Below the pieces are notes generated by a model. That model saw only the letters and a list, made by a program, of their open reading frames with translations, was not told where the DNA came from and ran no database searches. DNA of 64,000 bases from Curtobacterium sp. S6 (lineage in GTDB: Bacteria; Actinomycetota; Actinomycetes; Actinomycetales; Micrococcaceae), in NCBI RefSeq assembly GCF_000710345.2, contig NZ_KL537415.1:164433-228432 (forward strand), written 5' to 3'. The translations under genes and the position numbers were made by a program. How positions within the stretch are numbered: the first letter of the stretch is position 1; each line of letters begins with the position of its first letter. Shown here in pieces: positions 1-12,638 of this stretch.

Positions 1-36
1 ATGCTGTCTGCGCACCGGTCCACGAGGAGGTAACTC

Positions 37-882
37 ATGGGATGCCAGAAGAAGGCTGAAAAGAAGGCCCAGAAGGCCGCAAAGCAGGCCCGCAAGTCGG
101 CAAACGCTCGTTACTCCGAGGGTGTCGACAAGGTCAACGATCTGACGACCAAGCTGCAGAAGCGTGCCGATCAGGCCAACGACTGGGCGCAGAAGGAGGT
201 CGCTCCCCGTATTCAGGAGCAGATCGACCGCGCCACCCCGGCCGTTGAGAACGCCGTGTCGAACGCCCGCGTGAAGGCCGGAGAGGCCGCAGGCGTCCTG
301 GCCGATAAGCTCAACTCCGCCGAGGTCAACCCGCAGGTCGAAGCCTGGACCACCAAGGTCACCGGCAACAAGAAGACCTTCAAGAAGGCGCAGAAGGCCG
401 CGGCCAAGCGCGCCGAGGAGTTCGCCAAGCAGCAGAAGAAGGCCAACAAGAAGTCCCACAAGGGTCTTCTCGTCTTCGGTCTGCTGGCCGCGGCAACCGT
501 CGCGGGTGTCGCCGCATGGCGCGCTTCCCGTCCGGTCGAGGATCCCTGGAAGACTCCGGCGGATGCCAACCAGAAGCCGGGTTCGGCCAAGAACGACCAG
601 CCGGGTGAGGCCGCCAAGCCCGTTCCGGCTGAACAGAAGGTCACCAAGCCCGCTTCGGCCCCGGCTCCGGCCAACCAAGAGGTCAAGTCGCTGAACGACC
701 CCAAGAACACCAGCCACCCGGCCCCGGGCGCCCCGATGGATAAGCCGGCCACGCCGGTCGCGGGCACCCCGGACGCCAAGGGCAACCGTCCGGCTGATGG
801 TCAGGACAAGGGCGAGGCCGAGAAGCCCGCTCGTCCGGGCAAGCACGAGGCCCCGAAGAACGATCAGGACGGCAAGAACTAA
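37..882 (+). CDS. Lys/Ala-rich coiled-coil protein with one membrane segment, function unknown
   Basis: Predicted 281-aa protein starting at an ATG 6 nt after a clear GAGGAGG ribosome binding site. Residues 1-140 are charged, Lys/Ala/Glu-rich and likely helical or coiled coil. Residues about 143-161 form one hydrophobic segment (LLVFGLLAAATVAGVAAW), followed by an RPVEDPWKTP motif of the kind seen after the membrane anchor in many actinobacterial hypothetical proteins. The last 110 residues are Pro/Lys/Ala-rich and look disordered. The N-terminal region is therefore probably cytoplasmic and the tail outside or at the membrane face, but the topology is inference. No enzymatic motif is visible. 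It stands alone on the plus strand and ends at a strong terminator. I do not recognise a characterised family. Confidence 0.75.
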   Translation: MGCQKKAEKKAQKAAKQARKSANARYSEGVDKVNDLTTKLQKRADQANDWAQKEVAPRIQEQIDRATPAVENAVSNARVKAGEAAGVLADKLNSAEVNPQVEAWTTKVTGNKKTFKKAQKAAAKRAEEFAKQQKKANKKSHKGLLVFGLLAAATVAGVAAWRASRPVEDPWKTPADANQKPGSAKNDQPGEAAKPVPAEQKVTKPASAPAPANQEVKSLNDPKNTSHPAPGAPMDKPATPVAGTPDAKGNRPADGQDKGEAEKPARPGKHEAPKNDQDGKN

Positions 883-901
883 GGTTCTTTCCTACTGAAC
901 G

Positions 902-943
902 ACGACGCCGCCGCGCTGATCCAGCGCGGCGGCGTCGTTTTTT
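902..943 (+). terminator. Rho-independent terminator
   Basis: A 17-bp GC-rich stem (arms 902-918 and 922-938, 3-nt loop) runs into six T residues at 938-943, 20 nt after the stop of the coiled-coil gene. It is the natural terminator of that gene. Confidence 0.9.
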
Positions 944-1057
944 ATGGTTCTGATACGTGATCATTCAATTCCGTGCCGGGATATCGACCGGTGAGGAAAT
1001 TGACGGTGGGCTTCGACCGGGAGAATCGGTTCCCTGCGCCGAGCGTTCACGCCGGGG

Positions 1058-1336
1058 TTAGAGGTCCCAACCGCCGTGACGGAGGTGTTCCTCCACGCGG
1101 TTGACGTCCTCGGGAAGTGGCATCTCGTCGGTGATCTTGGTGATCTCCACGCCGATATCCACGGTTCCCGCGGGAATGACCCCTTCGGCCTTGAGCTGTC
1201 GGCAGATGTCGACGATTTCGTCGTCACCCAGCCGACGCCGCAATACGGCCACCAGGGGGATATAGTCCTGGCTTGGCATTCCCTCGGGGTATCCAGCTCT
1301 GAGCCACCTGATCACGGAGGCAGCGATGTTTCGCAT
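1058..1336 (-). CDS. DUF3349 family protein
   Basis: A 92-aa soluble protein beginning MRNIAASVIRWLRAGYPEG and containing the DYIPLVAVLRRRL and DDEIVDICRQL patterns typical of the small actinobacterial DUF3349 family, which has known structures but no assigned function. An AGGAGGCG ribosome binding site lies just upstream of the ATG at 1336. It is the last gene of a three-gene minus-strand group, 33 bp after a small membrane protein that follows pitA. Co-transcription with a phosphate transporter suggests, but does not show, a link to phosphate uptake. No membrane segment or catalytic motif is visible. Its length is normal for the family. Confidence 0.85.
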   Translation of the reverse strand: MRNIAASVIRWLRAGYPEGMPSQDYIPLVAVLRRRLGDDEIVDICRQLKAEGVIPAGTVDIGVEITKITDEMPLPEDVNRVEEHLRHGGWDL

Positions 1337-1369
1337 GTCGCCTCCTTTCTTAGGGCTCTGGAGAGAACC

Positions 1370-1666
1370 CTACTTTTTGGCGAGACCCAAGAAGTTAAAT
1401 CCCGTCAAATGAAAGAGGAAATCCTTGGCGATCCAGAGGATCCCCATGAGAATCGCCGCGATAATCACGGCGAAGACGATGGTGCCCAGAATCCGCATGG
1501 GGGCGGACGCCGGACGGACCTGCACCACGGAGCCATCTTCCTGAACCTGGGTCTGGCCGGAATTGATGCGCATTCCCAGGGCGAAGAGGGCGGGGAGCCC
1601 CGCGCCCAAGACGATGCCCGCAATGGTCACGGGAATCAGATTCGACAGAAGCTGCAGAAAATTCAT
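1370..1666 (-). CDS. small two-helix membrane protein in the pitA operon
   Basis: A 98-aa protein starting at the ATG at 1666 (MNFLQLLSNLIPV), chosen over a longer reading because an AAAGGA ribosome binding site precedes it and the extra 23 upstream residues look non-coding. Two hydrophobic segments are visible: about residues 5-31 (IPVTIAGIVLGAGLPALFAL) and 58-80 (ILGTIVFAVIIAAILMGILW), joined by a polar loop. It lies 16 bp after the pitA stop codon, so it is almost certainly co-transcribed with the phosphate transporter. Small membrane proteins occur next to actinobacterial pit genes, but no function is established. An accessory or stabilising role for PitA is a guess from position only. 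Confidence 0.75.
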   Translation of the reverse strand: MNFLQLLSNLIPVTIAGIVLGAGLPALFALGMRINSGQTQVQEDGSVVQVRPASAPMRILGTIVFAVIIAAILMGILWIAKDFLFHLTGFNFLGLAKK

Positions 1667-1682
1667 GATGATCCTTTCGTGA

Positions 1683-2966
1683 CTAGCGGTTGAGTGAATC
1701 GGCTGGGTGGGAGCTGCTCGTGGCGTCCTGACCAATCATTTCGCCAACCTTCTGGGGAACCATCGGTCCGCCGAGAGAACTCTCAGCTTCACCGGGCTTC
1801 GGCGTCGCGCCGTCGAGGCTCGCGGAGTCGCCCTCCCAATGGTCGTTGACGTTGTCCTGCGTGACCGGGGTCTTGCGGGAGCGTGCCCACATGAAGCCCG
1901 ACAGTGCGATCAGCAGAGCAAAGACCACGAGGGCTCCGACGAGCTCGTTGCTCACCATCGCGACGAGATGAGCGATGAACCACGTGATCGCGCCGACGAT
2001 GGCTGCCGCGGGAATCGTGATGACCCAGGCGGCGACCATGCGACCAGCGACGACCCAACGGACCTCCGCGCCCCTGCGTCCCAGCCCGGTGCCGAGGATC
2101 GAGCCGGTCGCGACGTGCGTGGTCGACAGGGCCATGCCGAAGTGCGAGGAGGTCAAGATGATCGCGGCAGAAGCGCCTTCGGCAGCCATGCCCTGCGGCG
2201 AATCGATCTCTACCAGGCCCTTGCCGAGGGTTCGGATGATGCGCCAACCGCCGAGGTACGTGCCGAGGGCGATCGCGCCGGCGCACGTGAGCTTGACCCA
2301 GAACGGGATGTCCGCGCTCGGATCGATCGAGGAGGAGGCGACCAGCGCCAGGAAGATCACGCCCATCGTCTTCTGGGCGTCGTTCGTTCCGTGAGCCAGG
2401 GACACGAGCGATGCGGTGCCGACCTGACCCCAGCGGAAACCGCGTTCCTTCTGGTCGTCTCCGACCTTGCGGGTGAGGCGGTAGATAACGGCGGTGCCGA
2501 TGGTCGAGATGAGGCCGGCGACCACCGGAGCTGCAACGGCCGGAATGATGACCTTGGCGACGATTCCGGTCCACAGGACGCCGCTCACGCCGAGACCGGC
2601 GATCGTCGCGCCGATCAGGCCCCCGAAGAGGGCGTGTGACGAGCTGGAGGGAAGGCCCAAGAGCCACGTGAGCAGATTCCACGTGATGCCGCCGACCAGG
2701 CCGGTAAACACGATGATCATCAGGTCACTGCCGGAGGTCATCTGGAGGTTCACGACCTCCTTGCCGACCGTCTTCGCGACCTCAATCGAGAGGAACGCGC
2801 CAACGAGGTTGAGGATGGCGGACAGCGCAACGGCAACCTTGGGCTTGAGGGCCCCGGTGGCGATCGACGTGGCCATGGCGTTTCCGGTGTCGTGGAAGCC
2901 ATTCGTGAAGTCGAAGACCAGTGCCGTCACGATGACGATTGCGAGGATGATGAGTTCAGGTGTCAC
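1683..2966 (-). CDS. pitA: low-affinity inorganic phosphate transporter PitA
   Basis: A 427-aa polytopic membrane protein of the PiT family, which imports metal-phosphate complexes with protons. The N-terminal repeat carries the family signature FDFTNGFHDTGNAMATSIATGAL (residues 18-40) and the second half has the related SLAHGTNDAQKTMGVIFLAL; these GANDxxN-like repeats are the PiT hallmark. About ten hydrophobic segments are visible, with a polar C-terminal tail of about 60 residues. Translation starts at a GTG at 2966. It heads an operon with a small membrane protein and a DUF3349 gene. Two 11-bp-spaced GTTxACC repeats upstream resemble a PhoP-binding PHO box, which would suggest phosphate control. 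Length and composition are normal. Confidence 0.93.
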   Translation of the reverse strand: MTPELIILAIVIVTALVFDFTNGFHDTGNAMATSIATGALKPKVAVALSAILNLVGAFLSIEVAKTVGKEVVNLQMTSGSDLMIIVFTGLVGGITWNLLTWLLGLPSSSSHALFGGLIGATIAGLGVSGVLWTGIVAKVIIPAVAAPVVAGLISTIGTAVIYRLTRKVGDDQKERGFRWGQVGTASLVSLAHGTNDAQKTMGVIFLALVASSSIDPSADIPFWVKLTCAGAIALGTYLGGWRIIRTLGKGLVEIDSPQGMAAEGASAAIILTSSHFGMALSTTHVATGSILGTGLGRRGAEVRWVVAGRMVAAWVITIPAAAIVGAITWFIAHLVAMVSNELVGALVVFALLIALSGFMWARSRKTPVTQDNVNDHWEGDSASLDGATPKPGEAESSLGGPMVPQKVGEMIGQDATSSSHPADSLNR

Positions 2967-3010
2967 ATGTGAATTATGCCGACGCGCGTCTAAAGACCAA
3001 CCCAGACTTT

Positions 3011-3028
3011 GGTGAACATAGGGTTAAC
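3011..3028 (-). promoter_or_regulatory. PHO-box-like direct repeat upstream of pitA
   Basis: On the minus strand GTTAACC-n4-GTTCACC gives two 7-bp units at an exact 11-bp period, 45 nt before the pitA start. Streptomyces PhoP binds 11-nt units with core GTTCACC. A third looser copy (GGTTACC, 3037-3043) lies further upstream but out of period. Confidence 0.45.
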
Positions 3029-3141
3029 TCATTATCGGTAACCTGTGATTTTAACTATGTTCCCCGTAAGGTAGACAGTTTGCTCTCGGGAGGAGACAAT
3101 CCGCTTCCGGAGCACGCCCTTTCGAGCGGGAAGTACACACG

Positions 3142-3173
3142 AAAAAGGTCCCCTTCCGGTGGAAGGGGACCTT
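3142..3173 (-). terminator. Rho-independent terminator of the tRNA-Ala-like gene
   Basis: Arms 3145-3157 and 3161-3173 form a 13-bp stem with a 3-nt loop, followed on the minus strand by a T5 run. It lies 14 nt beyond the 3' end of the tRNA-like RNA, which supports its transcription as a discrete unit. Confidence 0.88.
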
Positions 3174-3186
3174 CATGCGTATTCGG

Positions 3187-3257
3187 TGGAGGCGAAAGGA
3201 CTCGAACCTCTATCTTCTGCCCGAAGGCAGCTGCGCTACCAGTTGCGCCACACCCCC
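3187..3257 (-). tRNA. tRNA-Ala-like RNA without a canonical anticodon loop (non-decoding candidate)
   Basis: This 71-nt element folds as a tRNA. Its acceptor stem is GGGGGUG/CGCCUCC with a G3-U70 pair and discriminator A73, the identity elements of alanyl-tRNA synthetase. The D-arm is almost identical to that of tRNA-Ala(UGC) 170 bp upstream, and the T-loop UUCGAGU is intact. The anticodon arm differs: CUGCC(UUCG)GGCAG (3217-3230) makes a 5-bp stem capped by a cUUCGg tetraloop, so no 7-nt loop with U33 and three anticodon bases can form. The T-stem changes relative to tRNA-Ala are compensatory (G51-C63 to A51-U63) or tolerated (G50-U64), which argues for selection rather than decay. CCA is not encoded. 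It has its own terminator. Automatic callers may report Arg, Pro or undetermined. A pseudogene remains possible. Confidence 0.7.
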
Positions 3258-3308
3258 GAATCGGTGCCGTCGCTTCGTGGATTTACCCATGTCAACGAGG
3301 CCTTGTAC

Positions 3309-3338
3309 AGCCTACAACAACGCCGCTGAATTGCCCAA
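3309..3338 (-). promoter_or_regulatory. possible promoter of the tRNA-Ala-like gene
   Basis: On the minus strand TTGGGC (3338-3333), an 18-bp spacer and TAGGCT (3314-3309) would start transcription about 45 nt before the RNA. A terminator separates this unit from tRNA-Ala, so an own promoter is expected, but the hexamers are weak. A TTGACA at 3295-3290 has no good partner. Confidence 0.3.
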
Positions 3339-3378
3339 GTGGCCCGCCCCGGACGCCCTCGCACGACCGACGGATAGC

Positions 3379-3419
3379 AAAAAGCCCGGGGCGTCGTCTT
3401 CACGATGCCCCGGGCTTTT
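3379..3419 (-). terminator. Rho-independent terminator of tRNA-Ala
   Basis: Near-symmetric hairpin (arms 3379-3392 and 3407-3419) with A and T runs on either side, 4 nt after the CCA end of tRNA-Ala on the minus strand. Confidence 0.88.
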
Positions 3420-3422
3420 CCC

Positions 3423-3498
3423 TGGTGGAGGCGAGGGGACTCGAACCCCTAACCCTCTGCTTGCAAAGCAGATGCGCTACCAATTGCGCCACGCCCCC
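3423..3498 (-). tRNA. tRNA-Ala (UGC)
   Basis: Cloverleaf with acceptor stem GGGGGCG/CGCCUCC including the G3-U70 alanine identity pair, D-arm GCGCAAUUGGUAGCGC, anticodon stem UCUGC/GCAGA with loop UUUGCAA (anticodon UGC), T-arm AGGGG-UUCGAGU-CCCCU and discriminator A. A CCA follows directly and is included in these coordinates. It lies between the DLW-39-like gene and its terminator, and is probably co-transcribed with tRNA-Ile, as usual downstream of gyrA in this group. Confidence 0.97.
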
Positions 3499-3502
3499 AA
3501 AT

Positions 3503-3622
3503 TCAGTCGACCACGTCCGTGGACTCTTGCCACGTGCGCTTGGTCTCCTGCGAGTCCTTGACTCGTTTGGTCACCACAAAGGCAACCGTACCGGCCGCGA
3601 TGGCCGCCAGGATCTTCCGCAT
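3503..3622 (-). CDS. DLW-39-like short protein
   Basis: A 39-aa ORF, MRKILAAIAAGTVAFVVTK followed by RVKDSQETKRTWQESTDVVD, preceded by an AGGAGG ribosome binding site 6 nt from the ATG. The N-terminus is one short membrane helix (residues 4-18) and the tail is charged, with the TW-x-EsTD ending that matches the DLW-39 type of Micrococcales miniproteins, named for their length and conserved end. It sits between tRNA-Ile and tRNA-Ala, its usual location near gyrA. Its stop is only 5 nt from the start of tRNA-Ala, so it must be processed from a shared transcript. No function is known for the family; the assignment rests on length, sequence pattern and position. Confidence 0.75.
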   Translation of the reverse strand: MRKILAAIAAGTVAFVVTKRVKDSQETKRTWQESTDVVD

Positions 3623-3649
3623 GGGAACCTCCTCGGAGAAAAGACTCTG

Positions 3650-3723
3650 TGGGCGTACCAGGAATTGAACCTGGGACCTCTTCGTTATCAGCGAAGCGCT
3701 CTAACCGTCTGAGCTATACGCCC
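3650..3723 (-). tRNA. tRNA-Ile (GAU)
   Basis: 74-nt cloverleaf with acceptor stem GGGCGUA/UACGCCC, D-arm with UAGCUCAGACGG, anticodon loop CUGAUAA (GAU), and T-arm CCAGG-UUCAAUU-CCUGG. CCA is not encoded. It is the first RNA after the gyrB-gyrA-DUF3566 block, followed by DLW-39 and tRNA-Ala. Confidence 0.97.
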
Positions 3724-3778
3724 TTATTGGCCTTGGGCCGGAATAAAACATTACATGACTACCCGGCTCCAGCCAAAT

Positions 3779-3822
3779 CCCCTTTCGGTGACCTCACCCA
3801 CAGGGTGGGACACCGGAAGGGG
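3779..3822 (-). terminator. imperfect hairpin terminator after the DUF3566 gene
   Basis: Long interrupted stem (CCCCTT-CCGGTG-CACCC paired with GGGTG-CACCG-AAGGGG) starting 11 nt after the DUF3566 stop on the minus strand. The following tract (ATTTGG) is weak, so termination may be partial. Confidence 0.5.
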
Positions 3823-3832
3823 AAACCTCTGA

Positions 3833-4423
3833 TTAGTCGTCGGTCAGGGTGACCCCGATGCCGCCGACCAGTTTGGCCGCGATGTTGTACAGGAAGGCCG
3901 AGATCACGCCGAGCAACGTCATGAGAACGACGTTCACGATCGACAGGATCGTCGCGTACAGGGCCACCTGTCCGAGGGAGAGGTAGTCCGTAATGGATAC
4001 CGCGTTGCCCTGGCTGGACAGCATCGACAGCACGGAGTCCACGCCGCCGAAGATGCCCGTGATGTCGAAGACGAGCCACAGGATCACGGTCGCCACCACG
4101 ACGACGATGCCCACGGCGACCGACAGCAGGAACACCAGCTTGGCGATCGACCAGAGGTCCACCTTGGCGACCGTCAGGTGCGCACGACGGACCTTCGAGC
4201 GAGGTGCCGGGCGAACCAAGGGACGAGATCCCGAGGCCGGGCGCCTCTTATTACCGTTCGAAGGGCCCTTCGACGGCGCGTTTTTGGTCGCCGTCACCGA
4301 TTCGCCTCGGGCCGAATTCCCTGCTGCGGGTTGCCGACGATTGTCGGCCGGCTTGCGTGCAGAGGAGCCGGCGGGCGCGGCGGAAGACCTGCCTGCCGCA
4401 TTCCCAGGTTTACTAGTGCTCAC
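3833..4423 (-). CDS. DUF3566 membrane protein
   Basis: A 196-aa protein with a basic, Ser/Pro/Ala-rich disordered N-terminus (residues 1-80) and a C-terminal DUF3566 domain that starts at [27 protein letters not shown]. Two transmembrane helices are visible, about residues 92-117 and 155-178. The family is encoded after gyrA throughout Actinomycetota (Mycobacterium tuberculosis Rv0007 is one) and has been linked to envelope or division functions, without a defined activity. Its ATG overlaps the gyrA stop by 4 nt (ATGA), so it is translationally coupled to gyrA, and the gene order gyrB-gyrA-DUF3566 is conserved. Nothing about length or composition is unusual. Confidence 0.9.
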
Positions 4424-7101
4424 TCATTACCTCCGTGTGATGAAGATTCCGACTCGGCCGGAGTATCGGTCCGTTCACTACTGTTGTCCAACGGTACTGC
4501 ATTTTCGGTATCGAGCACTTCAACCGAACCGTCCTCGGCAATCTCTTGCCCCTCATCAACGCCCTTGTCCTGATTTCGGGCGATAGAGATGATTCGGTCG
4601 TTCTTGGCGGGCTTGGCAAAAATGACGCCCATGGTGTCGCGCCCCTTCGCCGGGACCTCGGCCACGTGGGACCGAGCGACCTTTCCGGACTGCATGACCA
4701 CGAGGACTTCGTCGTCGGCGCCCACGATCAGGCCGCCCACCAGGTCCCCGCGATCCTCGACCAACTTGGCCACCTTGATGCCGAGACCGCCTCGACCCTG
4801 CACCCGGTATTCCTGAACCTTGGTGCGCTTGGCGTATCCGCCCTCGGTCACCACGAAGACGTACGAGTCATCGGTCACCACGTTGGCGGCCAGGAGCTCA
4901 TCGCCGTCGCGGAATTTCATCCCGGTGACGCCGCTGGTCGCGCGACCCATCGGGCGAAGGGCCTCGTCGCTCGCGGTGAAGCGCAGCGACTGTCCCTTGC
5001 GGGAGATCAGCATGATGTCGTCGTCGGCGTGGGCCAGCTGCGCGGAGATGAGCTCGTCATCCTCACGCAGGTTGACCGCGATCACGCCGGCGGTGCGGTT
5101 GGTGTCGTAGTCGCTCAGGCGGGACTTCTTGACGAGCCCGTGCTTGGTCGCCAAGACCAGGTACGGGGCGTCCTCGTAGGTGCGCAAGGCCATCACCCGG
5201 GCGATCGTTTCCCCCGGCTGGAACGCCAGGAGGTTCGCCACGTGCTGCCCCTTGGCGTCGCGACCGGCCTCAATCAGCTCGTAGGCCTTAGTGCGGTACA
5301 CGCGGCCGAAGTTAGTGAAGAACAGAATCCAGTTGTGCGTGGTGGTGACCACCAGGTGCTCGACGAGGTCGTCGCCACGCAACTGAGCGCCACGAATTCC
5401 CTTGCCGCCGCGGTGCTGCGAACGATATTGGTCGATCCGGGTGCGCTTGACGTAGCCGCCGCGGGTGATCGTGACGACCATGTCCTCTTCGGGGATGAGG
5501 TCCTCGACGGACATGTCTCCGTCGTATCCCATGAGGATTTGCGTGCGCCGATCGTCGCCGTAGCGGTTGACGATCTCGCCGAGCTCCTCCGAGATGAGAT
5601 CGCGCTGGCGCTGCTCCGAGGCGATGATCGCCTTGTACTCCTCGATCATGCGCATGAGCTCGTCGTGACGATCCTGGATTTTCTTCCGTTCCAGGGCGGC
5701 CAGGCGGCGCAACTGCATGTTCAGAATCGCTTGGGCCTGCGCCTCGTCGATGTCGAGGAATTCCATCAGGCCGGTGCGGGCCTCGTCGACCGTCGGAGAG
5801 CGGCGGATCAACGCGATGACCTCGTCGAGGGCGTCGAGGGCCTTGAGCAGGCCGCGGAGAATATGAGCTTCTTCCTCGGCCTGATTGAGACGGAACTGGG
5901 TCCGGCGCACGATGACGTCCATCTGGTGGTGGACCCAGTGGCGGATGAACGCGTCGATCGAGAGCGTGCGGGGCACACCGTCGACGATCGCGAGCATATT
6001 CGCAGAGAAGTTCTCCTGCAGCTGCGTGTGCTTGTAGAGGTTGTTCAGCACGACCTTGGCGACGGCGTCGCGCTTGAGCACGATCACCAGTCGCTGGCCG
6101 GTGCGACCCGAGGTTTCGTCCCGAAGATCGGCGATACCGGTGATCTTGCCGTCCTTGATGAGATCGGCGATCTTGATCGCGAGGTTGTCCGGGTTGGCCT
6201 GGTACGGCAACTCGGTCACCACGAGGCATGTCCGTCCGTGAATCTCCTCGACGTTGACGACGGCCCGCATGGTGATCGATCCGCGGCCGGTGCGGTAGGC
6301 ATCCTCGATGCCCTTATGACCCAGGATCTGGGCGCCCGTCGGGAAGTCGGGGCCCTTCACGCGCTGCAAGAGCGCCTCCAGGAGTTCTTCGTCGCTGGCC
6401 TGGGGGTTTTCGAGGTACCACTGCACGCCGTCGGCCACCTCGCGGAGGTTATGCGGCGGGATGTTGGTGGCCATACCCACGGCGATGCCGGAGGAGCCGT
6501 TGACCAACAGGTTGGGGAACCGTGCGGGCAGAACGACCGGTTCCTGGTTCTTGCCGTCGTAGTTGTCCTGGAAATCGACCGTGTTCTCCTGGATGTCCCG
6601 CACCATCTCCATGGCGAGCGGAGCCATCTTGCACTCGGTGTAACGAGGCGCGGCCGCGCCGTCGTTACCCGGCGAACCGAAGTTTCCCTGCCCGAGGGCG
6701 AGGGGGTAGCGCATGATCCAGTTCTGGATCAGGCGGACCAAGGTGTCGTAGATCGCCGAGTCGCCGTGCGGGTGGTACTGCCCCATGACCTCGCCGACCA
6801 CGCGGGCACACTTATTGAACGACCGGTCCGGCCGGTAACCGCCGTCGAACATCGCGTAGATGACGCGGCGGTGCACGGGCTTGAGGCCGTCTCGCACGTC
6901 GGGGAGGGCGCGGCCCACGATGACCGCCATCGCGTAGTCGAGGTAGGACCGCTGCATCTCGGTCTGGAGGTCGATGCGTTCGACGCGGTCGGTCAGCCGA
7001 GGGCCGCCCTCGAGGTCACCGCCGAGTACTTCGCCCTCGATGGGCTCTCCGGCCTGCGGGTCCTGAGGGTCGTTGGTCGAACCGTTGTCTTCGGTGCTCA
7101 T
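4420..7101 (-). CDS. gyrA: DNA gyrase subunit A
   Basis: An 893-aa GyrA, the breakage-reunion subunit that with GyrB introduces negative supercoils. Visible are the [30 protein letters not shown] start of the winged-helix domain, the [10 protein letters not shown] active-site tyrosine, and the quinolone-resistance region [17 protein letters not shown] with the drug-sensitive Ser and Asp. The C-terminal beta-pinwheel has a GyrA-box variant (QHRGGKGI in place of QRRGGKG) needed for DNA wrapping. An acidic tail of about 50 residues follows. It lies 93 bp after gyrB, and its stop overlaps the DUF3566 start. No intein is present. Confidence 0.98.
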
Positions 7102-7194
7102 GCTGTGTTCGTTCCGTCCTGGTGAAAGTCGTCAGTCGCGCGATATCGGTCATCCCGAGGCATTACATGCCTCAATGGGAATATTGAGTATCGG

Positions 7195-9605
<2,411 letters not shown>

Positions 9606-9926
9606 ATGACCGATCAACAGCTGCCCAATCTCGAGGAATGGTTGAACCGCGTCGCCGAGGAGCTCGATCTGCCGGGCGACGTCGTGGTGCCCGGCCCCAT
9701 TCTGGCGATGACCAAGGACGTGGCCCACGGGATCGTCCGCCCGGGGGCTCCCACGAGTTCCTTCCTGGTGGGGGTCGCCCTCGGCCGCCAGCTGGCCGAA
9801 GCCGAGGGCACCCACCCGGATCCTTCCACCACGGCGCAGTTGGAAGGCCTCACCCGCCGGGTCTCCGACCTGGTCTACGAGGTTCGGGCCGAAGCCGGCC
9901 TCGGCGAGGAGGCCCAGGAATCGTGA
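9606..9926 (+). CDS. DUF6457 domain protein, molybdenum-cofactor associated
   Basis: A 106-aa soluble protein (MTDQQLPNLEEWLNRVAEEL start) with the pattern DVVVPGPILAMTKDVAHGIVRPGAPTSSFLVG, which matches the small actinobacterial DUF6457 domain. That domain also occurs fused to MobA-type molybdopterin-guanine dinucleotide synthases. Here it stands alone, and its TGA overlaps the GTG start of fdhD by 4 nt, so both are translated from one mRNA. The pairing with fdhD supports a role in maturing a molybdenum enzyme such as formate dehydrogenase. The biochemical activity is unknown. No formate dehydrogenase gene is in this window. Confidence 0.8.
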   Translation: MTDQQLPNLEEWLNRVAEELDLPGDVVVPGPILAMTKDVAHGIVRPGAPTSSFLVGVALGRQLAEAEGTHPDPSTTAQLEGLTRRVSDLVYEVRAEAGLGEEAQES

Positions 9927-10765
9927 GCCGCAGCGAATCGCGCACCCGGGTGGTGCGAGTCTCCGAGGACGGGACTCGTGACGCTCGGGCCGACATGCTC
10001 GCCACGGAAGAACCGCTGGAGATTCGCGTCAACGGCCGCCGCCTCGCGGTCACGATGCGCACCCCCAGCGAAGATTTTTCCCTCGCCGCGGGGTTCCTCC
10101 TGAGCGAGGGCGTGGTCACCGACGGCGAGCAGATCTCCTCGATCCGGTATTGCCGCAAAGATTTTGGCCCGGGCGCCGAGGACGGCGACAACACGATCGA
10201 CGTCGTCCTGCAGCCGTGGGTCCTCCCGCCGCTTCCTTTCCAAGAGCGCAACGTGATGATGTCCAGCGCGTGCGGAATGTGCGGCCGCACGAGCATCGAT
10301 CAGGTGCACCAGAAGTCGATGTTTTCGGTCGATGACGATCCCCTGCGCCTGACCGAACGGTTCGTCCTGGACATGCCGCAGATCCTCCGCGATCGGCAGA
10401 AAGTCTTCGACCACACCGGCGGTTTGCACGCCGCAGGCCTGTTCGACGGCCGAACCGGCGAGCTCGTGGCCGTTCGCGAAGACGTGGGACGCCACAATGC
10501 GGTGGACAAGGTTCTCGGATGGGCGCTCTTGGACGGAAAGCTCCCGCTGAGCCAGCACGTGCTGATGGTCTCCGGTCGGGCGAGCTTCGAACTCACGCAG
10601 AAGGCCGCGATGGCCGGCGTGCCGATGCTGGCTTCCGTGTCCGCACCGTCTTCCCTGGCGGTCGACCTCGCCAGGGACTCCGGCATGACGCTCGCGGGTT
10701 TCGTCCGTGGGCATCGATTCGTCATCTACAGCGGCGGTGAACGGATCGTCGCCTCCGCCGACTAG
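9923..10765 (+). CDS. fdhD: FdhD sulfurtransferase for formate dehydrogenase
   Basis: A 280-aa FdhD. The protein transfers sulfur from a cysteine desulfurase to the bis-MGD molybdenum cofactor of formate dehydrogenase. The catalytic CGMC motif is present in SSACGMCGR, along with the family signatures EPLEIRVNG, FLLSEGV, HTGGLHAAG and REDVGRHNAVDKVLG. The start is the GTG at 9923 overlapping the DUF6457 stop; a much longer upstream reading frame exists but crosses that gene and lacks family similarity. It converges with dciA, and their stop codons share 10762-10765 (CTAG). Length is normal. Confidence 0.95.
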   Translation: MSRSESRTRVVRVSEDGTRDARADMLATEEPLEIRVNGRRLAVTMRTPSEDFSLAAGFLLSEGVVTDGEQISSIRYCRKDFGPGAEDGDNTIDVVLQPWVLPPLPFQERNVMMSSACGMCGRTSIDQVHQKSMFSVDDDPLRLTERFVLDMPQILRDRQKVFDHTGGLHAAGLFDGRTGELVAVREDVGRHNAVDKVLGWALLDGKLPLSQHVLMVSGRASFELTQKAAMAGVPMLASVSAPSSLAVDLARDSGMTLAGFVRGHRFVIYSGGERIVASAD

Positions 10766-11397
10766 CCGTAGGTGTCCCGCGGTCCGCGACCGCCCGGCGC
10801 GACGCGTCTGCCCTTGCGCCACGAGGGGACATTCGGGCCGAGCACGCTGATCTTTGTCACGATCCCCGGTCCCAATTCCTTCTCGAAGGTCCGCATGAGC
10901 TGCGGGGTCATCGTGCGGAGGGTCGTCGCGTAGTTGGTCGAGTCGCAGCGGATCACGACGACCGCGTCCTCGTAACTCTCCGGTTTGGAGTGGGCCGCTA
11001 TCGATGCGCCGACGATCTCGGACCAGCGCGACAACACGCTGCTGACCGCGACGGGCTCCTTCCATCCGCGGGAAGAGATCATGTGGGTCAGCACCGAACC
11101 GAGGCCTTGGGGATCCCGCGAGGACTTGCCCGGCCCGGTGTATCCGCCCAGGGTCCGGGGATCCCACGCCTCATCGCGCCAACGGCGCACCTTCGACTTG
11201 CCGGGCTCCGCGGAGACCACATCCCCGAAATCCCGAATGATCTTCTTGGCGGCATTCCCCGTGAGCCGACCTTCGCCACGTTCGAGCGCGGCGTTCCTCA
11301 GCCGTTGCAACAACGCGGCCGGAGCATCGATCTGGTTGCGCTCCAACACACGCCGGGCGGCCTCGCCGGTGGCGTCATCTCCGGGGTTCGTGGTCAT
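10762..11397 (-). CDS. dciA: DciA-type helicase loader (DUF721)
   Basis: A 211-aa protein with the DUF721 core WSEIVGASIAAHSKPESYEDAVVVIRCDSTNYATTLRTMTPQLMRTFEKEL near the C-terminus. DUF721 proteins are DciA, the ancestral loader of the replicative helicase DnaB used by bacteria that lack DnaC or DnaI. The N-terminal half is basic and probably disordered, as in other actinobacterial members. The ATG overlaps the recF stop by 4 nt (11394-11397), which fits the conserved dnaN-recF-dciA order near oriC. The partner helicase dnaB is at 36.2 kb. The protein ends convergently with fdhD. Confidence 0.92.
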   Translation of the reverse strand: MTTNPGDDATGEAARRVLERNQIDAPAALLQRLRNAALERGEGRLTGNAAKKIIRDFGDVVSAEPGKSKVRRWRDEAWDPRTLGGYTGPGKSSRDPQGLGSVLTHMISSRGWKEPVAVSSVLSRWSEIVGASIAAHSKPESYEDAVVVIRCDSTNYATTLRTMTPQLMRTFEKELGPGIVTKISVLGPNVPSWRKGRRVAPGGRGPRDTYG

Positions 11398-12638
11398 TCC
11401 GACTCATCCCCGTCTGGGGGCGCACCGGAATTCTCGTCGGCGTCCAGCCCCGTGCCCGACTGGTCCTGCACGACCACGGCCTGGCCCGGAGAGACCCGCA
11501 CGATGCGTCGCGCACTCTCCAGCTCGTCGGGCAGGTCCTCCTCGACGGCGCACGTCACCAGAACCTGTTCGGCGCCGGAAACGATCCGAGCCAGCCGCGC
11601 CCGCCGGGTCGCGTCGAGCTCCGCGAAGACGTCGTCGAGGATCAGGATCGGGCAGGCGGAATCGTCGTCGTGGTCGGCCTGGTGCAGATACCACGAGCCC
11701 AGCCGCAGGGCGAGGGCGTAGGACCACGTTTCACCGTGAGAGGCATATCCCCGAGCGGGAATATCTCCGAGGATCAGGCTGATTTCGTCCCGATGCGGCC
11801 CGACCAGGCTCATGCCCCGTTCGACCTCGTCGACGGCCCGTTCCTCGAGCGCGGACTCGAGCATCGCACCCAATTCCTGCAACGGAATGCGTGAGAGCGC
11901 CGCGATGTCGGCGCCGGCTCCCCGCCCGAGAGCGACGGATTCGTACACAAAGCCGAGGGTCTTCCCACCGTCGGTGAGCTGTTCATAGGCCCGGTCTGCT
12001 TGGGGCAAGAGACCGGCCAATACCTGGAACCGCGCCTGCATGATGCGAGCCCCGAGGTTGACGAGTTGACCGTTCCACACGTCGAGGGTCGCGCGTTCGT
12101 CCTCGCCGAGGGATTTTCCGACGCCGCGTTTGCGCAGCGACTTCAGCAGGGCATTGCGCTGCCGCAAAACCTTCTCGTAGTCGGCCCGGTACCCACCGAT
12201 GACCGGACGCAGGGAGACCGCGAGGTCGTCGACGAAACGACGGCGCCCCGCCGGTTCGCCCTTAACGAGGTCGAGGTCCTCCGGCGAAAAGAGCACGGTC
12301 TGGCAAATGCCGAGGGCCTCCCGGACACGCACCGGCGCGGCGCGATTAATCCTGACGCGATTGGCCTTTCCCGGGGCGAGCTCGAGTTCCATGACGGTCT
12401 GTTGTCCGCCACGAACCACCCGCGAACGGATATAGGAACGATCCGCGCCGACCCTAATCAGGGGGGCGTCGTTGCTGACCCGATGGGAAGACAGGTTTGC
12501 GGTGTAGTCGATGGCCTCGACGATGTTGGTTTTGCCCACGCCGTTCGGCCCAACCATGACGGTCAGTCCGGTGGTCAGCGGGAGATCCAGGAACCCGTAG
12601 GTCCTGAAGTCCATGAGCGAGAGGTGATCTATGTACAC
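11394..12638 (-). CDS. recF: DNA replication and repair protein RecF
   Basis: A 414-aa SMC-like ATPase that loads RecA at gaps. It has Walker A VGPNGVGKTNIVEAI near residue 30, the FSPEDLDLVKGEPAGRRRFVDDL segment, and the Walker B/D-loop LILDDVFAELD near the C-terminus, followed by VLVTCAVEEDL. The last about 30 residues are an acidic tail. It starts at a GTG 12 nt downstream of the dnaN stop and overlaps dciA at its 3' end. Position between dnaN and dciA is canonical. Confidence 0.96.
   Translation of the reverse strand: MYIDHLSLMDFRTYGFLDLPLTTGLTVMVGPNGVGKTNIVEAIDYTANLSSHRVSNDAPLIRVGADRSYIRSRVVRGGQQTVMELELAPGKANRVRINRAAPVRVREALGICQTVLFSPEDLDLVKGEPAGRRRFVDDLAVSLRPVIGGYRADYEKVLRQRNALLKSLRKRGVGKSLGEDERATLDVWNGQLVNLGARIMQARFQVLAGLLPQADRAYEQLTDGGKTLGFVYESVALGRGAGADIAALSRIPLQELGAMLESALEERAVDEVERGMSLVGPHRDEISLILGDIPARGYASHGETWSYALALRLGSWYLHQADHDDDSACPILILDDVFAELDATRRARLARIVSGAEQVLVTCAVEEDLPDELESARRIVRVSPGQAVVVQDQSGTGLDADENSGAPPDGDESE

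Follow-up and report, generated by a model that had tools for sequence, protein, structure and literature searches.

A tRNA-Ala-like RNA with a UUCG-capped anticodon arm, conserved in Kocuria massiliensis, and its possible role as a non-ribosomal alanine carrier

The locus and the tRNA-like RNA

The window, the whole stretch of 64,000 nucleotides of Curtobacterium sp. S6 that was analysed, carries on its minus strand a series composed, in order of transcription, of tRNA-Ile(GAU), a 39-codon ORF, tRNA-Ala(UGC), a terminator-like hairpin, a tRNA-Ala-like RNA (here called the element), a terminator-type hairpin at 3173-3145 and a phosphate-transporter-like gene. An orthologue of the element is present at the equivalent site in Kocuria massiliensis (contig NZ_LT835159.1; G012, L074), which serves for comparison throughout. 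The features are, in window coordinates:

3649..3723, minus strand: tRNA-Ile(GAU) (ARAGORN, Rfam)
3503..3622, minus strand: 39-codon ORF between the tRNA genes (by eye), presumably DLW-39-like
3423..3498, minus strand: tRNA-Ala(UGC), the decoding gene of parent type (ARAGORN, Rfam)
3258..3317, minus strand: leader of the element, with 42 of 59 aligned bases shared with K. massiliensis
3187..3257, minus strand: tRNA-Ala-like RNA, G1 to A73, 71 nt (Rfam match, ARAGORN, fold)
3217..3230, minus strand: anticodon arm, a CUGCC-UUCG-GGCAG hairpin with its UUCG loop at 3225-3222, the same in K. massiliensis
3195..3211, minus strand: T-arm, AGAGG-UUCGAGU-CCUUU, with A49-U65, G50-U64 and A51-U63
3145..3173, minus strand: 13-bp terminator-type hairpin (compared with K. 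massiliensis)
1683..2966, minus strand: transporter gene 3' of the element in both species (ORF list), which we take to be a PiT-type phosphate transporter (pit)

The element matches the tRNA model RF00005 on the minus strand from 3257 to 3187, over model positions 1-71, with 54.6 bits (E 9.9e-10; gathering score 29). ARAGORN reports it at 3257-3185 as 'tRNA-???' with the two-letter anticodon 'tc'; the end at 3185 takes in the CC following A73, and the CCA is incompletely encoded (ACCG). The minimum-energy fold is a cloverleaf of -28.8 kcal/mol in which a 5-bp anticodon arm is capped by cUUCGg. The fold energy by itself is unremarkable, since 23 of 200 shuffles fold equally well (z-score -1.32). 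The element has the cloverleaf and the covariance score of a tRNA and lacks the 7-nt decoding anticodon loop, in place of which there is a 6-nt cUUCGg with the closing pair formed.

Aligned to the neighbouring tRNA-Ala(UGC), the element differs in 13 of 73 columns, which are 11 substitutions and two deletions, one of an anticodon-loop base and one of a variable-loop base. The anticodon loop has changed from UUUGCAA to CUUCGG and the variable loop, now of 4 nt, from GGGUU to AGAU. The 5-bp anticodon arm has come about through loss of the pair 27-43 (U27 to G, now G/A) and gain of C32-G; elsewhere the acceptor pair 6-67 has gone from C-G to U-G and one U of the D-loop has become C. In the T-stem the pair 51-63 has changed from G-C to A-U, a true double change, and 50-64 from G-C to G-U by a single change to a wobble, so that the initial annotation, which had called the T-stem differences compensatory, was right for the first pair and not for the second. 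A49-U65 pre-exists in tRNA-Ala(UGC) and was not gained by the element. What is kept includes G3-U70, A73, G18G19, U8, A14 and the T-loop, and with them the bases on which the L-shape depends; the tRNA-Ala identity bases G3-U70 and A73 are also present in the K. massiliensis orthologue. Judged by this alignment, the element is a paralogue of the adjoining tRNA-Ala(UGC).

Conservation, origin and distribution

The element and its orthologue, which scores 51.4 bits against RF00005, are identical at 70 of 71 bases, the sole difference lying in the variable loop. The tRNA-Ile (74/74) and tRNA-Ala (73/73) genes are identical in both species, and the flanks of the element are 63.0% (spacer before) and 64.1% (stretch after) identical. 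Four-fold sites differ at 42.4% in gyrA, 40.9% in gyrB and 52.4% in pit, and the probability of one change or none in 71 unconstrained bases is 8e-16 at p = 0.42 and 3e-8 at p = 0.25. The stem of the terminator-type hairpin differs in 4 of 13 pairs, with three double compensations, one change to a wobble U-G and none broken. This comparison of two species shows purifying selection on both the element RNA and its terminator. A result that points the other way is the minimum-energy fold of the K. massiliensis 71-mer (-31.6 kcal/mol), which departs from the cloverleaf although it retains the UUCG arm.

The initial annotation had described a tRNA-Ala-like RNA at 3187..3257 with a 5-bp anticodon arm closed by cUUCGg, incapable of normal decoding and provided with its own terminator, all of which agrees with the above. 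It had also named beforehand conservation of the tetraloop in relatives as a check, and the K. massiliensis orthologue bears this out. Its placing of the element upstream of tRNA-Ala has to be corrected, as the element lies downstream in transcription order.

A possible -10 (TAGGCT/TAAGCT) can be seen by eye at 3314-3309 on the minus strand. A consensus promoter scan returned nothing at the expected place before the element, this candidate included. Before the transporter gene there are GTTAACC-GTTCACC repeats (window 2990-3040, minus strand), also found in K. massiliensis, which we take to resemble a PhoP box.

The trailer of the element, CCACCGAA, resembles the tRNA-Ala trailer of relatives (L003-L005), and the tRNA-Ala of this locus is followed by CCACCAGG; from this likeness we infer that the element arose by tandem duplication of tRNA-Ala. 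There has been no recent gene conversion, since both species differ from tRNA-Ala at all 13 columns and agree with each other at 12.

The element is rare, and two orthologues only are present among the genomes scanned. Among 395 genomes of the family the UUCG-closed-arm pattern was found in two, each within the 35 of the genus (this genome and K. massiliensis), and in an order sample of 396 it was found in one, again this genome, the sample being without the K. massiliensis genome. Stretches from four other genomes (G010, G011, G024, and L004 from G025) carry tRNA-Ile and tRNA-Ala with no tRNA-like gene after them. A search of 390 genomes for a shortened tRNA-Ala with any loop gave, beyond both orthologues, only G296, with two matches having a normal-looking TGGCA loop. 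An origin from a mobile element was considered and is not supported: eight of 50,697 phage records match the element at 76.0-82.3% identity (annotated as tRNA-Ala in five, as tRNA-Pro in one and unannotated in two), and six of 72,556 plasmid records match a 211-base stretch, none covering more than 34% of it. Reading the ORFs of window 1-10000 by eye brought up no integrase.

Candidate enzymes, proposed role and alternatives

The genome gives 48 matches to the tRNA model, and their T-stems were read by script in 45 and by eye in three (Thr GGU, Met CAU and Phe GAA). A51-U63, with any 49-65 pair, is carried by 10 of the 45 script-read tRNAs, the element counted, and is therefore ordinary when taken alone. 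Together with A49-U65 it is found in the element alone among the 48. All four decoding tRNA-Ala genes (UGC, CGC, and GGC twice) have A49-U65, G50-C64 and G51-C63, and because these four are present the element is not needed for decoding. The T-loops of tRNA-Thr(GGU), tRNA-Met and tRNA-Phe (L191, L198, L199) start with A54 (GATCGA), not U54.

Passages of PMC4052509 describe three tRNA-Gly species of Staphylococcus aureus in which strong EF-Tu pairs are swapped for A49-U65 and A51-U63 and G18G19 is also replaced. In these non-proteinogenic tRNA-Gly the two pairs, which appear in PMC9976931 as well, are tied to weak EF-Tu binding. Of the cell-wall tRNA signatures the element carries both pairs and keeps G18G19. 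The pair G2-C71, named essential for FemX identity in the same passages (PMC4052509), is present in the element, and the table of a review has positions 35 and 36 among the conserved positions of tRNA-Ala. The T-stem combination of the weak-EF-Tu type, as read from the sequence, is a new point.

The conservation of an extra tRNA-Ala without anticodon loop suggests an alanine carrier acting beyond protein synthesis. The reading we prefer, with a little less than an even chance, is that tRNA-Ala(UGC) was duplicated and the copy, our element, made into a dedicated non-translational alanine carrier, whose likeliest user is a FemX-like protein. Such an RNA would be transcribed separately, processed and given its CCA. 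AlaRS requires G3-U70 and not the anticodon, and on the strength of G3-U70 the element would be charged with alanine. The charged RNA would then bind EF-Tu and the ribosome poorly and stay free for an enzyme that uses Ala-tRNA, most likely one of two FemX-like proteins, which would put alanine on the stem lysine of peptidoglycan. In wider terms, the UUCG cap, the presumably weakened EF-Tu contact and the kept charging end may together represent a tRNA gene rebuilt as an obligate non-ribosomal aminoacyl carrier, with its alanine set aside for making cell wall or other non-ribosomal products; we hold this tentatively, at slightly below even odds. Several observations tell against the preferred reading: the FemAB proteins are far more widespread than the RNA, G18G19 is retained, A51-U63 by itself is ordinary and A49-U65 is older than the element, leader and trailer can pair, the K. 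massiliensis 71-mer does not fold best as a cloverleaf, positions 35 and 36 count as conserved in tRNA-Ala, and the orthologues number two.

FemAB proteins (PF02388) are above cut-off in all 35 genus genomes, three of which are 65-87% complete, and in three of 14 of the control; the RNA is found in two of the same 35. The ligases occur throughout the genus and the RNA does not, so that their distribution lends no support to a link between FemX and the RNA. This genome has two FemAB proteins above the Pfam cut-off, and the top NCBIfam match of both is FemX UDP-MurNAc-pentapeptide-lysine alanyltransferase, at 19.3 and 54.6 bits against a cut-off of 500. A search of the open-access literature gave no peptidoglycan type for K. 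massiliensis. A cell-wall link of the element is plausible. The initial annotation had proposed an alanine donor for cell-wall bridges or another non-ribosomal use; the T-stem pairs shared with staphylococcal tRNA-Gly and the FemX-like proteins speak for this in general, but the specific link to bridges is not supported, in view of the FemAB distribution, of the retained G18G19 and of a UUCG-armed gene in a genome without FemAB match (L104, see below).

All the evidence for a non-ribosomal carrier would fit equally well if the charged element served an Ala-tRNA enzyme other than FemX, in lipid aminoacylation, in the making of a peptide natural product or in N-terminal tagging. In favour of such a user are the match to PF09924 (aminoacyl-lipid synthase C-domain) in this genome and in K. 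massiliensis, and the independent gene of L104, which has a UUCG arm, G3-U70 and A73 in the genome without FemAB match. PF09924 is, however, found in 22 of the 35 genus genomes without tracking the RNA, and CDPS in none of 35, a weak negative as the control was also silent; we regard this alternative as unlikely.

Likewise unlikely is an uncharged tRNA mimic, that is a regulatory or protein-binding RNA which might titrate AlaRS, RNase P or a nuclease and be embedded in a longer transcript through pairing of leader and trailer. These are indeed complementary in the precursor, as AUUC/GAAU here and CUUC/GAAG in K. massiliensis (one compensatory pair), and in silico the extended leader-trailer fold of our precursor reaches -32.2 kcal/mol against -28.6 for the cloverleaf, 3.6 better; in this prediction the pairing could impede processing of the element. 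A mimic would not need G3-U70, A73 and the acceptor stem, yet all are kept. A role as T-box ligand depends on the anticodon. The identity with a Y RNA was rejected, there being no Ro protein (TROVE) in any of the 35 genus genomes, with the control matched in one of 14, and no RF02553 among the Rfam matches with an E value of 1 or less in window 1-12000.

A nuclease-proof decoy, in which a body of tRNA-Ala type that offers no anticodon loop to cut would shield the decoding tRNA-Ala against tRNA-modifying toxins or anticodon nucleases, appears very unlikely. Conflicts between tRNAs and nucleases are common in viral genomes, and viral contigs also carry UUCG-armed tRNA-like genes, but these differ in acceptor and in the 3-70 pair; anticodon nucleases read the very loop that is missing here, and inspection of the adjoining ORFs by eye showed no defence gene.

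The loss of the anticodon and the rarity of the gene could suggest a decaying pseudogene or an artefact of sequencing or assembly. This is rejected as highly improbable: with a near-identical orthologue in another species amid diverged flanks and four-fold sites, the element is neither, the terminator is compensated, and the sequencing error that the initial annotation had allowed for is excluded. Least probable of all is a working tRNA decoding through its 6-nt loop, after opening or as a frameshifter; CUUCGG may in principle be unpaired and ARAGORN gives 'tc', but cUUCGg is an exceptionally stable tetraloop and the Ala codons are already served by four other tRNA-Ala genes.

In the open-access literature searched, no earlier example of a natural anticodon-less alanine donor or tRNA-Ala was found. 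If the element is a non-decoding RNA with a charging end, it would offer a clean natural test, in which a phenotype of removal could hardly be attributed to decoding. An undetermined call by a tRNA finder may, as here, conceal a gene under selection.

Other UUCG-armed genes and known systems

A scan for the UUCG-arm pattern gave at least 80 stretches in the species collection and 19 in viral contigs. Among the 99 stretches listed, 45 form an ordinary 7-nt loop, 33 are better paired with a 6-nt loop and 21 fit neither; when 31 of the listed 33 (without L039 and L075) were compared with Rfam, a tRNA match overlapped the pattern in 19. Not all are anticodon-less tRNAs: L034 resembles a tRNA-Leu with UUCG in the variable arm, the match of L107 adjoins one to YrlA, and in the archaeal L043, L059 and L093 the tRNA matches span 123-129 bases.

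Ten other loci were submitted to ARAGORN, of which nine were called 'tc' (L104, L067, L080, L053, L121, L116, L129, L131 and L122) and L066 was uncalled. The nine share with the element the cUUCGg anticodon arm and differ from it in sequence and place, and they look like independent origins. L104 is the only one of them to combine G3-U70 and A73 with an acceptor paired along its whole length. This UUCG-armed gene (L104:2314-2243, minus strand) is from Microbacteriaceae and lies near tRNA-Thr(CGU); its 51-63 is an A/G mismatch (by eye). FemAB gave no match in this genome, whose completeness is not given, and the UUCG-arm pattern was absent from five other searched genomes of its genus.

Several tRNA-like genes deserve mention. 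Two Pseudomonas species carry an identical UUCG-armed gene directly before tRNA-Arg(CCG) (L067:5043-4971 and L080:3158-3086, both minus strand). One CUUCGG-armed tRNA-like gene is shared by two Proteus genomes and four viral contigs (L037, L112, L114, L115, L123, L127) and is perhaps prophage-borne. Four actinobacterial loci (L040, L050, L063, L086) have a tRNA-like stretch with a 7-nt CUUCGGA loop, a CATGGAG/CTCCATG acceptor (C1-G72) and U73, which is odd for tRNA-Arg(UCG). In L107:994-1210 a YrlA match (994-1129) precedes another tRNA-like stretch (1167-1210), which has a UUCG arm and may be a second Y RNA.

Three known systems can be set beside the element. The bacterial Y RNAs (YrlA, RF02553) have, like it, a tRNA-like module without decoding; the module was reportedly described by Chen et al. 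in 2014. The element is unlike them in having a complete acceptor stem with A73, in a genus without Ro and with no RF02553 match to the locus. The tRNA-Other of Bacillus cereus, a pseudo-tRNA, is also a tRNA-like gene judged to be outside translation. In the published passages on it, it has retained a Trp anticodon, is charged only poorly (with Lys in vitro), borders a genomic island and occurs within longer RNAs, whereas the element is a tRNA-Ala duplicate inside a tRNA-Ile/tRNA-Ala cluster. The non-proteinogenic tRNA-Gly of S. aureus are, like the element, surplus to decoding, with A49-U65 and A51-U63 and with FemX-type proteins in the genome; the element differs from them in its alanine instead of glycine identity, in the removal of the anticodon loop, in the retention of G18G19 and in a cell-wall role that is putative.
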